Below, piece by piece: positions 30,226 to 37,241 of a stretch of DNA of 38,109 bases. Source of the stretch: Clostridiaceae bacterium (GTDB taxonomy: Bacteria > Bacillota > Clostridia > Lachnospirales > Lachnospiraceae); assembly GCA_021200535.1 (NCBI GenBank), contig JAJQGL010000097.1, forward strand, positions 1 to 38,109. The letters run 5' to 3'. Each line of letters starts with the position of its first letter. The stretch's first letter is position 1. The notes beneath the pieces were generated by a model. That model made no database searches, was not told the DNA's origin, and worked only from the letters and a program-made list of their open reading frames with translations. Position numbers and translations under genes: made by a program.

Positions 30226-31275
30226 ATGGGAAATTATGATCAGATGGCAGCTGCGGTAAGCGAACTGTCTGGAGGAAAAAATGTTGTGCTACTTGATGAT
30301 ATTGGTATTCCGTCTATTTATGTAAGAATACCGAAAGGCAAAAATTCTGAGGTGGTAAGTGGGCTTACTGACAATGTCCATCCTGCTTTTAACGTGGATG
30401 GAGTAGAAAAAACGGCTTTTTACTACTCTAAATATCAGAATATCATCGAAAATGGAAGGGCATATTCCTTGGCGCACAGAGATCCGAGGGCATCTTTGGA
30501 TTTTGATACTGCAAGGGCAGCATGTGAAGCAAAGGGAACGGGATTTCACCTTGCAACAATGGCTGAATGGGCGTATATTGCACTGTGGTGCAGGGCGAAC
30601 GAAACAATGCCGCACGGAAACAATAACTATGGGAAGGACATTACCTATGCATACGAGAAGGGCGAGGCGTCATATTATGACAGCACGAACACATACCGAA
30701 CATTCACTGGGTCTGGACCTGTTACATGGAATCATAACTGGCAGACAGATGGTATTTGCGACATGAATGGCAATGTGTGGGAATGGAATGCGGGCATGAG
30801 GTTATATGATGGTGAAATACAGATTATACCATATAATAATGCTGCGCTCGGTGCTGAGTGTGATATGTCAGCGACGTCTACGCTGTGGAAAGCAATACAG
30901 AGCGATGGTTCCCTTGTTGAACCTGGCTCTGATGATACATTAAAGTATGATTATGTATCAAGTCATATTCAGTTAACTACGGAGATTACAAGTTCTGCAG
31001 ATTCCGGCAGAGGATGTACATATCAGAGCATGACACTGGCAACTGATTTGGAGGCACCGGAACTTGCAAAAATCCTGCTGATTTATCCAGATGAGCCAGG
31101 CGGAGATTACGGCGGAGATTACCATTGGATGAACAATACTGGCGAGCGGTTGCCGATCTGCGGCGGTGGGTGGAGCCATGGGGCTTACGCCGGCGTCTTC
31201 TGCGTCAACATGAACGATCTCCGCTCGGGCTCGGACGCGAGCATCGGTTTCCGCTCCGCTTTTGTTGATCTGTAA
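30226..31275 (+). CDS. DGR variable target protein, FGE-sulfatase/C-type lectin-like fold
   Basis: 349 residues from ATG 30226 after AAGGAGG. The C-terminal two thirds resemble the formylglycine-generating-enzyme type of C-type lectin fold used by many retroelement targets: Phe-His-Leu-Ala-Thr-Met-Ala-Glu-Trp-Ala at about 105-115, Gly-Ile-Cys-Asp-Met-Asn-Gly-Asn-Val-Trp-Glu-Trp near 180, and a final Gly-Gly-Gly-Trp...Gly-Phe-Arg-Ser-Ala. The last 40 residues are the variable repeat. Residues 315, 317, 318, 321, 326, 331, 335, 337, 338 and 339 differ from the template coding. It is expected to be displayed on the tail tip and bind varying ligands. Its catalytic use as a sulfatase-modifying enzyme is not expected. 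Confidence 0.92.
   Translation: MGNYDQMAAAVSELSGGKNVVLLDDIGIPSIYVRIPKGKNSEVVSGLTDNVHPAFNVDGVEKTAFYYSKYQNIIENGRAYSLAHRDPRASLDFDTARAACEAKGTGFHLATMAEWAYIALWCRANETMPHGNNNYGKDITYAYEKGEASYYDSTNTYRTFTGSGPVTWNHNWQTDGICDMNGNVWEWNAGMRLYDGEIQIIPYNNAALGAECDMSATSTLWKAIQSDGSLVEPGSDDTLKYDYVSSHIQLTTEITSSADSGRGCTYQSMTLATDLEAPELAKILLIYPDEPGGDYGGDYHWMNNTGERLPICGGGWSHGAYAGVFCVNMNDLRSGSDASIGFRSAFVDL
31146..31260 (+). repeat. DGR variable repeat (VR), 115 bp
   Basis: Aligns without gaps to the template at 31775-31889. The 11 differences are at VR 31168, 31175, 31177, 31186, 31202, 31216, 31228, 31229, 31234, 31237 and 31241, each opposite a template adenine (nine A to G, one A to C, one A to T). All 91 non-adenine positions match. 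The last 19 bases contain no change and would hold the initiation-of-homing site. Confidence 0.96.
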
Positions 31276-31294
31276 TCTGCTGTACTGTGTTCTG

Positions 31295-31328
31295 ATAGAG
31301 GCTGCGATAGCGGCCTCTATATTTTTTT
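31295..31328 (+). terminator. Hairpin downstream of VR: terminator and probable DGR cruciform
   Basis: ATAGAGGCTGC (31295-31305) pairs with GCGGCCTCTAT (31310-31320), 11 bp with one wobble. The loop is GATA, which fits the GRNA tetraloop rule known for retrohoming hairpins beside VRs. Seven T at 31322-31328 also make it a rho-independent terminator. It begins 35 bp after the VR end. Confidence 0.8.
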
Positions 31329-31388
31329 CAGAGCAGAATAACGAAAAGCGATATTTTATAACAAGGAAATCGCAAAAAACACAGAATG

Positions 31389-31397
31389 TGGTAGAAT
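31389..31397 (+). promoter_or_regulatory. Possible extended -10 promoter of the avd-TR-RT unit
   Basis: TGGTAGAAT at 31389-31397 has the extended TG-n-TAnAAT form, about 29 bp before the avd ATG. No convincing -35 is visible. A separate promoter is expected here because a terminator lies just upstream. Confidence 0.3.
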
Positions 31398-31425
31398 AGG
31401 ATAAAATGCGATACAGAGGGAACAG

Positions 31426-31761
31426 ATGGAAGAATTAAAAATATTACAGAAGGTTTTTGATATGATGGATTACGCCTACAAAGCACTCGCCCAATACCCA
31501 AAGGGAGAAAAATTTGCACTAGTGGCGGATATCAAGCGGTGCATGGACTCGATACTTGAAAGGGTAATCGAAGCCGATAAGAAGTATTACAAAAAGACTA
31601 CTCTGCAGGAGTTGGATGTAGGAGTGGCGAAATTAAAAGCATATATCCGATTATCATACAATCTCGGCTTTCTTCCGATTAAGAAATATGATATCTGGTC
31701 CGGCATGGTGGTAGAAATTGGGAAGATGGTTGGCGGCTGGATAAAAAGTACAAACAAATAG
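31426..31761 (+). CDS. avd: DGR accessory variability determinant (Avd)
   Basis: 111 residues from ATG 31426 after AGAGGGA. It is predicted to be a four-helix bundle with a basic middle (Lys-Lys-Tyr-Tyr-Lys-Lys) and the typical Leu-Gln-Glu-Leu-Asp-Val-x-x-x-Lys-Leu-Lys and Tyr-Asp-Ile-Trp-Ser-x-Met-Val-x-Glu-Ile-Gly-Lys motifs of bacterial Avd proteins (related to the S23 intervening-sequence protein). Avd forms a pentameric barrel that binds the RT and template RNA and is needed for retrohoming. It lies directly before the template repeat, the classical order. Confidence 0.9.
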   Translation: MEELKILQKVFDMMDYAYKALAQYPKGEKFALVADIKRCMDSILERVIEADKKYYKKTTLQELDVGVAKLKAYIRLSYNLGFLPIKKYDIWSGMVVEIGKMVGGWIKSTNK

Positions 31762-31774
31762 GGAATAGGATACT

Positions 31775-31889
31775 GCGGTTGCCGATCTGCGGCGGTAGGT
31801 GGAACAATGGGGCTAACGCCGGCGTCTTCTACGTCAACATGAACAATCTCCGCTCGAACTCGAACACGAACATCGGTTTCCGCTCCGCT
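31775..31889 (+). repeat. DGR template repeat (TR), 115 bp
   Basis: Non-coding copy of the VR between avd and the reverse transcriptase. It contains 24 adenines, mostly as AAC or AAT codons when read in VR register. This places Asn at the diversified positions, the usual template design because changes of both A's reach many amino acids without stops. It begins 14 nt after the avd stop. An open frame through it is incidental. Confidence 0.96.
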
Positions 31890-31908
31890 CTACCTTTTAA
31901 GTCAGATG

Positions 31909-31972
31909 CTGTATACCTAATGGGTATACAGTCAGTACCAAGGTGTAAAGGATCCTATTTCCATGCTGGTAC
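31909..31972 (+). ncRNA. Structured spacer RNA downstream of TR
   Basis: Starting 20 nt after TR, CTGTATACC (31909-31917) and GGTATACAG (31923-31931) form a perfect 9-bp stem with a 5-nt loop. GTACC (31935-31939) and GGTAC (31968-31972) could close a second stem. In the Bordetella phage retroelement, RNA just downstream of TR folds and primes cDNA synthesis with Avd and RT. These stems are the likely counterpart. Boundaries are approximate. Confidence 0.55.
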
Positions 31973-32081
31973 AGCAAAAAACAAGGGACTTGTTATGCGA
32001 GCCCCTTTGGGCACAGAATGCCGAGAGTAAGAGTTTCTGAAATCCGCAATGCCCCAAAATAAGAAAAATGGAGGGGATAAG

Positions 32082-33188
32082 GTGTCCATAAAAAATGTTT
32101 TTGCGGAAATGTCTTCGTTTGAAAATATCCTTATTGCTGAGAAAGACGTCCGGGCGGGCAGCCGATACGATAATGAGGAAATCGCTTTTTGGGGTAAATA
32201 CGAGGACAATCTCCATGAAATAACCAGAGCTGTACAAAATCTCGATTTTCCACCAGATCTGTATCGTTCATTTTATGTATATGAACCTAAACTGAGGAAA
32301 ATAGTATGTGCGGATTACACAACAAAAGTTATACAGAGGGCGGCTTATAATGCGCTTAACCCAAAAGTATGTAAGGGGTTCATAACGGATACTTTTTCTT
32401 GCGTAAAGGGAAGAGGGCAACTCAACGCCATGCTGCGTCTTTCGGAATGGGTGAATTATGTTTCGCATAAAGGAAAAAATTGGTACTATCTGAAAGCAGA
32501 TGTAGAAAAATTTTTTTACAGAATCGACCATAAAGTTCTAATGAAGATTATCCGCAAGAAAGTAGCAGACAAAAAAGCAGTCCGTCTTATGGAGCATTAT
32601 ATCTGTGAAGCGTCGCAGCCGTTTGGTCTTCCACTCGGGGTAAAAAATCCTATGGATATTCCAGATGAAGAAATGCTTTGGGATGTTGGTATTACGATTG
32701 GCGGAGGACTGTCTCATATGTATGGGAATATGTATCTTGATCCGTTAGATCAGATGGCAAAAAGAGACTATGGAATAAAGTATTACATTCGATATATGGA
32801 TGATGTAATAATTTTGTCGGATGATAAGGGGGAACTTAATCGTTATAAGAAAGAGTTTTCGAATTTTTTAAATGACGAATTGAGACTGAGACTTAACAAT
32901 AAAACAGCCATAAGACCTGTTTCACAAGGAATTGAGTTTGTCGGGTATCGAATATGGCCTGGTTATGTTAGATTGAGAAAAAGCACCAGCCTTCATATGA
33001 AGCGCCATTTGAAAGAAATACAGGAAAAGTATCGAGATTATGAAATGACTTTTGAGAGAGCCAACCAAACCGTACAGAGTTATAATGCCCTTATGGACAA
33101 GTGCGACTGCAAAGCATTAAAGGAAAAAATTTTTAAGGATTTGGTATTTACCCATAATCCGAAGGAGGCAATGGAAATCGATGGATGA
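32082..33188 (+). CDS. DGR reverse transcriptase
   Basis: 368 residues from GTG 32082, 6-7 nt after GGAGGGG; an ATG at 32049 is in frame but lacks a ribosome site. Domains in order: Arg-Lys-Ile-Val-x-x-Asp-Tyr with Phe-Ser-Cys-Val-Lys-Gly-Arg-Gly (fingers), Leu-Lys-Ala-Asp-Val-Glu-Lys-Phe-Phe-x-x-Ile-Asp-His (motif A), Ile-Gly-Gly-Gly-Leu-Ser-His (motif B region), Tyr-Met-Asp-Asp at 238-241 (catalytic), and Gly-Ile-Glu-Phe-Val-Gly-Tyr-Arg (motif D/E). It copies TR RNA with errors at adenines. The motif B stretch ends in Ser-His where many DGR enzymes have Ser-Gln. It overlaps the next gene by 8 nt. Confidence 0.94.
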   Translation: MSIKNVFAEMSSFENILIAEKDVRAGSRYDNEEIAFWGKYEDNLHEITRAVQNLDFPPDLYRSFYVYEPKLRKIVCADYTTKVIQRAAYNALNPKVCKGFITDTFSCVKGRGQLNAMLRLSEWVNYVSHKGKNWYYLKADVEKFFYRIDHKVLMKIIRKKVADKKAVRLMEHYICEASQPFGLPLGVKNPMDIPDEEMLWDVGITIGGGLSHMYGNMYLDPLDQMAKRDYGIKYYIRYMDDVIILSDDKGELNRYKKEFSNFLNDELRLRLNNKTAIRPVSQGIEFVGYRIWPGYVRLRKSTSLHMKRHLKEIQEKYRDYEMTFERANQTVQSYNALMDKCDCKALKEKIFKDLVFTHNPKEAMEIDG

Positions 33189-36317: not shown

Positions 36318-37241
36318 TTAAGCAACTCTGCAGGTCATTCCTGCGGCTTTTTTGAGTGGCGTCATAAGATGCAATCTACATGTTTTGAATTCATCTCCAT
36401 AAAGCCCTAATCTATGGGTAAGGATATTTCTCATAATGGTAACTTTCTGCTCTTTGGTGTAGCCTGCCATTGAACGGAATACAATTTTTTCTTGTGAGGT
36501 GATAGCCCATGCAGATATTGCCAAGCAGAATTGAATATATGCTTTGATTTTGCCTGCGTGGAGGGTACTATTGAAAAGCCGGAACTCAACGGTGCCTTTT
36601 GTAAAATAACTGTGAAGATTTACGCCATGATAGCGAGTGCAGTTATAATGTTCATGGCTGATACCGCCTGTATATCCGTCGTTTGCCCTGCTGTACCAAA
36701 TCTCCTCTGCTTTTTCTTTTGTGAGATTTTTATCTTTTTTCATGGCTTTAAGCAGATCGGAATTAAGTTTCTGACACCAAGCAGATTCCCTACTTTCAAT
36801 TTCAAGGGCTTCATAGATTAAATCCTGCCTAGAAGTCATGAAATTTACTAATCTGCGGAGAGAGTTTGGATTGTGGTTTACTCCGTCTACATGGATGTGA
36901 ATACCGCAACTGCTGTGAGCCTTTGCACCGTTTTCGCGAAGTTTTCTGATAATATTCTGCAATAGTTCTATGTCTGTATAGTTGAGAGGCGGGGTAACAA
37001 ATTCTACTTTGTATTGGTCCATTGGAGCATGACTGCTGTCATTGCGGATAGGACAGATTGAGCTATCTCTCATGACTTTCCACTTGCGAGCCGCCTGATC
37101 AACAATAGTGCGTGTCTCGTAGCATGAAACGTTTGGATTGGATGGGGTGGTGTCGAGAACTTCTGCGACGATGGCTGCCGCTTTCTCCCTTGTGATACCT
37201 GTCATTTCTACTTCTACTCCAAATAATTGATTTTTCAACAT
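36318..37241 (-). CDS. Amidoligase (glutamine synthetase-like fold)
   Basis: 307 residues, minus strand, AAGGAGG 8 nt before the ATG. Amidoligase_2 motifs: Phe-Gly-Val-Glu-Val-Glu-Met (7-13, metal-binding Glu residues), Trp-Lys-Val-Met-Arg-Asp-Ser-Ser-Ile, Lys-Val-Glu-Phe-Val-Thr-Pro-Pro-Leu, Cys-Gly-Ile-His-Ile-His-Val-Asp, and Gly-Thr-Val-Glu-Phe-Arg-Leu-Phe-Asn. Such enzymes are predicted to use ATP to form amide bonds between carboxylates and amines. The substrate is unknown. It is in one operon with a small helical protein upstream (13 nt) and the GGCT-like protein downstream. Confidence 0.88.
   Translation of the reverse strand: MLKNQLFGVEVEMTGITREKAAAIVAEVLDTTPSNPNVSCYETRTIVDQAARKWKVMRDSSICPIRNDSSHAPMDQYKVEFVTPPLNYTDIELLQNIIRKLRENGAKAHSSCGIHIHVDGVNHNPNSLRRLVNFMTSRQDLIYEALEIESRESAWCQKLNSDLLKAMKKDKNLTKEKAEEIWYSRANDGYTGGISHEHYNCTRYHGVNLHSYFTKGTVEFRLFNSTLHAGKIKAYIQFCLAISAWAITSQEKIVFRSMAGYTKEQKVTIMRNILTHRLGLYGDEFKTCRLHLMTPLKKAAGMTCRVA

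Follow-up and report, generated by a model that had tools for sequence, protein, structure and literature searches.

A phased YTG array as a proposed homing tag in the diversity-generating retroelement of a contractile-tailed phage or prophage

The retroelement and its features

The 38,109 nucleotides of contig JAJQGL010000097.1 (assembly GCA_021200535.1, Clostridiaceae bacterium), hereafter the window, hold a complete diversity-generating retroelement (DGR). It consists of a target gene ending in a variable repeat (VR), an avd gene, a template repeat (TR), a probable spacer RNA and a gene for a reverse transcriptase (RT), all on the same strand (Table 1). Between the VR and a GC-rich hairpin lies an array of phased YTG triplets, which is the main subject of this text. 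The completeness of the DGR, claimed in a preliminary description made from the sequence, was borne out by family matches of all three proteins (RVT_1, bAvd and the FGE-sulfatase type of the target) and by PHROG, which names an Avd of a DGR and a reverse transcriptase. Also the described placement of the TR between avd and the RT gene holds. The span 31146..31889 given for the element does contain everything from the VR to the TR, but the complete element is longer, as the RT gene reaches 33188. Additions to that description are the hairpin, the array, the RT-14 RNA and the SH motif of the RT. The RT reads RYMDD at its catalytic YxDD motif, and the target is a putative variable protein of the C-type-lectin type by its family match to PF03781 only.

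Table 1. Features of the DGR in the window (positions of the window).
Feature	Position	Strand	Evidence
Target gene, 349 aa, C-terminus with VR	30226..31275	+	PF03781 FGE-sulfatase-type (C-type-lectin-like), E 5.9e-7
Variable repeat (VR)	31146..31260	+	115 nt, 11/11 differences at TR adenines
Phased YTG array, proposed target tag (extended initiation of mutagenic homing site, IMH)	31262..31294	+	TTG 31262; CTG 31270, 31277, 31285, 31292
GC-rich hairpin/cruciform	31295..31320	+	11-pair stem with one G-T, GATA (GRNA) loop, then T run
avd, 111 aa	31426..31761	+	PF22296 bAvd, E 1e-28; phrog_3206
Template repeat (TR)	31775..31889	+	115 nt, 24 adenines
Rfam RT-14 RNA, probable spacer (Sp) RNA	31888..32007	+	RF02921, 61 bits against threshold 48.1, full model
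DGR reverse transcriptase, 379 aa, YMDD	32049..33188	+	PF00078 (RVT_1), E 6.5e-19; phrog_1423, E 2.5e-113
RT motif 4	32697..32717	+	sequence: IGGGLSH instead of (I/V/L)GxxxSQ

Variable and template repeats

Recomputation gave the same gap-free alignment of the two 115-bp repeats as described before (offset 629), with 11 differences, every one of them at a TR adenine, and 91 identical non-adenine sites. The pair was also found again by a repeat search without adenine bias. The substitutions are nine A>G, one A>C and one A>T. They span positions 31168–31241, and both this range and the number of changed codons of the target, ten (R315G, N317S, N318H, N321Y, Y326C, N331D, N335G, N337D, T338A and N339S), agree with the preliminary description. 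The 3' end common to the VR and TR, GGTTTCCGCTCCGCT, is not a G/C-only 14-mer of the type found in BPP-1. With the VR as query, the source assembly (2,894,690 bases in 118 contigs, 91% complete) produced no matches at E ≤ 0.001 except the VR and TR themselves.

That the repeats could be a chance pair or an ordinary duplication, and not part of a DGR, was considered and rejected. No evidence in favour of such an origin was found, the probability of all 11 differences falling on adenines by chance is 3.5e-9 (hypergeometric test), and an RT, an Avd and an RT-14 RNA lie alongside, which together leave it a practically negligible chance.

The phased array in the window

The five units of the array follow each other with gaps of 8, 7, 8 and 7 nt between the VR and the hairpin, and form the sole YTG chain of at least five units at 7–8 nt on either strand of the window. 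No chain follows the window TR. The hairpin starts 34 nt past the VR and has a GRNA loop. Phage DGR hairpins have been reported to have a GC-rich stem of 7–10 bp, a GRNA loop and a distance of 4–34 bp (PMC3240598), against which the stem in the window is slightly longer. Together with its T run the hairpin scores as terminator-like, and such matches in the region are no commoner than in shuffled sequences (3 against a mean of 3.0).

Survey of the array in related loci

The survey included 165 sequences, the window and the loci L004–L167, when L001–L003 had been left out as copies of the window. A repeat pair with at least five differences, at least 70% of them at A, was present in 118 of the 165. 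Seventy-seven loci were non-redundant after the VR, and 76 once L073 was dropped, its repeat being judged non-DGR. BPP-1 (L080) is included in these 76, and excluded from the dinucleotide-shuffle, unit/spacer, ATT and tree analyses (n = 75).

In the 45 nt after the VR of the 76 loci, YTG pairs at distances of 7, 8, 14, 15 and 22 numbered 137, 65, 62, 76 and 49, the corresponding shuffle means being 4.6, 4.7, 3.8, 3.7 and 2.8. Chains of at least three units at 7–8 nt were found after the VR in 59 of the 76 loci and after the TR in none, window included. Other gap settings gave lower chain counts, 39 with gaps of 6–7, 9 with 8–9, and 0–2 when neither 7 nor 8 was allowed. CTG led the 64 triplets by a wide margin, with 46 loci against 12 for ACT, the next. 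Without BPP-1 the 59 loci with chains are out of 75, whereas 300 dinucleotide shuffles gave 2.6 on average and never more than 9. In 230 ungapped and non-independent pairwise comparisons the unit bases differed at 455 of 3096 sites (14.7%) and the spacer bases at 1531 of 3505 (43.7%). Most YTG starts (243 of 337) are located beyond the stop codon of the target, and only 16 of the 75 loci have five consecutive T between +30 and +80.

For a later set of 28 loci, 27 from named genomes together with L325, the pattern was fixed beforehand. A repeat pair was present in 15 of these, 11 of them DGR-like, and the chain followed the VR in 10 of the 11 and the TR in none (0/11). Six of the 11 (L331–L333, L335, L337 and L340) resemble arrays of the first set more closely than the redundancy limit allows, exact copies being three of them and L337; of the five truly new loci four had the chain and L341 did not. 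In L045, a two-target DGR of the first set, the second VR (1364–1480) lies some 4.6 kb upstream of the other and has a CTG array and a hairpin of its own. By eye, in-phase CTG or TTG units were seen also in VHML, ACA1, ARM81mr, phiWae15, ZX4290, BalMu-1, Dulem virus 37 and FP_Lagaffe, and three of four units were in phase in 1F273_PE002.

The Avd-less candidates, which bear on what reads the array, were the crAss-like cr55_1 and cr115_1 (the latter cut by the record end) and Perkons; they yielded no TR/VR pair. The RT protein alone as a query against viral and genome contigs found no relatives, the target protein did, and in 28 genomes of the genus, searched at the DNA level, the matches beyond the window itself were only partial.

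The array in the BPP-1 and phPA-G clades

The last 21 bases of the annotated 134-nt VR and TR of BPP-1 differ at exactly five sites (−15, −11, −9, −8 and −7), five being also the published number of IMH mismatches. According to the published account this 21-bp element sets directionality. NTG units lie in it at −18, −10 and −3 (gaps 8 and 7), and the TR mismatches at −9 and −8 break the middle unit, CTG. A published four-base spacer swap that keeps activity touches, as we place it, no NTG unit. For the BPP-1 clade 67 sequences were fetched, 53 had a repeat pair and 28 were non-redundant; NTG chains were found after 27 of the 28 VRs and one of the 28 TRs, with shuffle means of 1.1 and 1.8.

For the phPA-G clade (L175–L254) the 80 sequences fetched included 71 with a pair and 49 loci. 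Here ATT pairs at 8 and 16 nt after the VR numbered 53 and 38, with about one expected, and ATT chains followed the VR in 18 of the 49 loci and the TR in none, leaving 31 of 49 without a chain. Strict YTG chains were found in 0/49 loci of this clade and 0/28 of the BPP-1 clade, and strict YTG is therefore rejected as the unit of all clades.

The RT tree was constructed of 68 sampled RTs: 33 of the 75 of window/VHML type, 16 of the 49 of phPA-G type, 14 of the 28 of BPP-1 type and five others. The array labels cluster by RT clade, the YTG label needing 7 changes in comparison to 21.4 with shuffled labels; 24 rows have no array label, and some clustering is expected from near-copies. The pitch seems to be common to the clades and the unit letters clade-specific, a pattern recognised post hoc for the BPP-1 and phPA-G clades.

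RT motif 4

Motif 4 of the window RT has SH in the place of SQ. Among the 117 loci with a repeat pair, BPP-1 and Bise included, SH was present in 15 and SQ in 99, and the RT was not found in three. In the RT tree the SH rows (the window, L090, L092 and L109) form a single starred branch. In the 12 unique SH pairs 156 of the 158 changes are at TR adenines, and the share of A>G is 64% with SH and 50% with SQ (chi-square p-value 0.005, the rows being non-independent). SQ was earlier reported in 90%, with SH among the rare exceptions that still show adenine exchange; the same report hypothesised that the SQ motif defines adenine-specific infidelity, while allowing that SQ is perhaps not strictly required and that the exceptions could be errors or inactivations (PMC3521204). 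The SH branch bears on this hypothesis, as SH is inherited in it and the adenines are still changed, which argues that SQ is not needed for adenine-specific change. SQ is a hallmark of DGRs, but not one that every DGR must have. In L019, a close relative, the catalytic motif of the RT is RYADD instead of RYMDD.

Homing in the window and its relatives

The past activity proposed in the preliminary description is supported: the adenine differences in the window show past homing only, and recent homing is seen in the relatives. The 37 unique TR/VR pairs of 40 loci, window included, have altogether 515 differences, of which 491 are at TR adenines, a total that is not an unbiased test, as the pair finder favours adenine mismatches. 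These 491 changes include 271 to G, 118 to T and 102 to C. The excess of A>G resembles the misincorporation of C by the BPP-1 enzyme, which made up 59.3% of its errors in E. coli (PMC12875486), though natural VRs are also under selection.

Four loci (L024, L331, L332 and L333), with targets 67–68% identical to that of the window, have identical TRs, and the 900 nt before the VR hold only 0–3 differences. Their VRs differ pairwise at 14–16 sites, 13–16 of these at TR adenines. L023 was left out of this comparison. The RTs of L331–L333 are of the SQ type and outside the SH branch of the window. Within the SH branch, L090 and L091 have seven differences in the 56 VR sites held by both, all seven at TR adenines. 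The same part of the TR and the 60 nt after the VR are free of differences, and the 1500 nt after the TR hold 17. The three other pairs checked from the SH branch were identical throughout. The pattern points to recent homing in the relatives, the VRs differing almost only at TR adenines and the flanks hardly at all.

The loci L024, L331, L332 and L333 represent near-identical phages from different hosts or samples, which differ mainly in the VR. The repeat pairs of L006 and L015 include non-adenine differences (4/10 and 3/8), mostly C>T, and are perhaps decayed or of another type.

The RT-14 RNA

The start of the RT-14 RNA adjoins the last base of the TR. The RNA was found also in 8 of 15 and 7 of 18 further sources, the matches including near-copies (L028/L029 and L090/L091), and in all 16 matches, window included, it starts at most 4 nt from the TR end. 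It was not found in the named gammaproteobacterial phages, FP_Lagaffe or Dulem virus 37. The spacer RNA of BPP-1 folds, recruits RT–Avd and primes the cDNA (PMC12875486). Because RT-14 starts at the TR end and the BPP-1 spacer has this role, the DGR spacer RNA of the window clade is probably RT-14, which would recruit RT–Avd and prime the cDNA. The Rfam entry RF02921 gives no function, so that RT-14 here gains a probable one.

Phage setting of the window

The window is a contractile-tailed phage or prophage, as had been described: it includes a tail sheath (phrog_205, E 4.9e-83), a tape measure and a baseplate hub and wedge, together with terminase, portal and major head genes. The target matches phrog_2889 (E 2.4e-139) and the tail protein phrog_5302 (E 1.2e-17). 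Its earlier naming as the probable tail-tip binding protein is retained as likely, because the target gene follows the baseplate genes, the receptor-binding role being inferred from this position. The label of a gut-type phage derives from kinship alone, the named genomes with relatives of the target including Lachnospiraceae, Acetatifactor muris and Gemmiger. Beyond the lysis genes lies an Amidoligase_2 gene (36318–37241, reverse strand, E 4.3e-63).

Interpretation of the array

We consider, with a probability of roughly 0.7, that the contractile-tailed phage or prophage of the window, from a host of Lachnospiraceae type, carries a complete DGR of a kind that has worked recently, and that the array and the hairpin on the VR side mark its homing site. 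The TR RNA together with the RT-14 spacer RNA would recruit the RT and Avd, the RT would copy the TR with errors opposite adenines, and the cDNA would replace the VR, re-diversifying the C-type-lectin-like end of the protein whose gene follows those of the baseplate. Marks of the homing site would stand only next to the VR: the YTG array with its pitch of 7–8 nt, followed by the GC-rich GRNA-loop hairpin, neither of which is copied from the TR. The complex of RT, Avd and RNA would read the sense strand of the array, probably in the single-stranded state, and with no array after the TR the transfer would be one-way. What the sequences show directly is the anatomy of the element, the restriction of change to adenines, the recent change in relatives and a conserved array specific to the VR side; its role as a tag, the molecule reading it and the single-stranded state are inferences.

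The array is most simply explained as a target tag, because it is not copied from the TR, follows both VRs of L045, is absent after the TR and overlaps the direction element of BPP-1. Reading in a single-stranded state by RT–Avd–RNA is favoured, because the cDNA pairs with the sense strand, and the BPP-1 DGR in E. coli works best with the cDNA-pairing strand as template of lagging-strand synthesis (PMC12875486).

Several points weigh against the array as a homing mark. The strict YTG chain is missing in 16 of the 75 loci, of which 10 have a relaxed pattern (shuffle mean 2.3, maximum 7) and several carry in-phase CCG, CAG or TAG by eye. The new test set is small, five loci, with one miss. Pseudomonas phage Bise, with a target of the window type and an RT on a long branch of the RT tree, has no array after the VR, and none was seen by eye in FP_Brigit, MT835569 and vir525. 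Of the five BPP-1 mismatches, those at −15, −11 and −7 fall outside the NTG triplets. The BPP-1 clade has no strict YTG chains and needs the looser NTG, chosen post hoc; also the phPA-G clade lacks YTG chains, and its ATT unit was picked after inspecting all 64 triplets. The authors of PMC12875486 attribute the strand effect to access of the cDNA, and the part of that paper covered mentions no array. Finally, the array units are known from sequence only.

The array could also be read by a host factor exposing or holding the target strand, for instance a primase at its start sites or a single-strand binding protein. CTG is a start triplet of the E. coli primase, which counts for this alternative. 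So does the effect of replication direction on homing (PMC12875486), in which, however, altered DnaG activity was without effect in E. coli, a result not decisive by the authors' own account. Furthermore, the unit type follows the RT clade, YTG being present in phages of Firmicutes as well as of Vibrio, Pseudoalteromonas and Aeromonas, and another unit with RTs of the phPA-G type, and primase sites would not require a phase of 7–8 nt. Reading by a host factor is on these grounds improbable. Still less probable, with very little chance of being right, is a functionless, decaying tandem repeat of heptamers. Near-tandem heptamers do occur in some loci, such as L060, but the units are kept while the spacers change, the gaps mix 7 and 8, and the array is absent after the TR.

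A wider extension of the target tag is put forward tentatively, the odds being against it: a homing code of Avd-type phage DGRs with 3–5 units at a pitch of 7–8 nt in the sense strand, which RT–Avd–RNA would read in single-stranded form, perhaps one unit per Avd protomer. The letters would be specific to the clade, YTG in the window and VHML relatives, NTG/TGA in the BPP-1 relatives and ATT(C) in the phPA-G relatives; each DGR would recognise only its own targets, and the BPP-1 IMH would be the case of three units. Avd is a pentamer, with which an upper limit of five units would agree, but two loci reach six units in a wider stretch and such a limit was not upheld.

Relation to known systems and significance

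The DGR of the window is in itself ordinary, another case of a known DGR type. With the BPP-1 DGR (mtd/avd/brt) it shares the order target–VR–hairpin–avd–TR–spacer–RT, the adenine-only change, the GRNA-loop hairpin and the difference between IMH and IMH*. BPP-1 differs in its G/C-only 14-mer and 21-bp IMH inside the repeat, with three NTG units, whereas the window has five YTG units beyond the TR/VR repeat and SH in RT motif 4. The Faecalibacterium phage FP_Lagaffe, the Bacillus phage BalMu-1, Dulem virus 37 and the Vibrio phage VHML have the target family and gene order of the window and YTG-type units after the VR, with different unit letters and numbers. Among these four, only FP_Lagaffe and Dulem virus 37 have an annotated Avd. 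The RTs of FP_Lagaffe, BalMu-1 and Dulem virus 37 are 36–39% identical to that of the window, and those of VHML and BalMu-1 have SQ in contrast to its SH.

The homing of cDNA into the VR was still incompletely understood in 2026 (PMC12875486), and the passages of the literature consulted state no general rule for the IMH, which they treat as an element of 21 bp. No description of a phased array was present in the passages of DGR papers searched, an incomplete selection of openly accessible literature. As a testable rule, the array could aid the finding of targets in genomes, and it would explain the varying distance between the VR and the hairpin. Its main interest is that it makes the target choice of DGRs testable.
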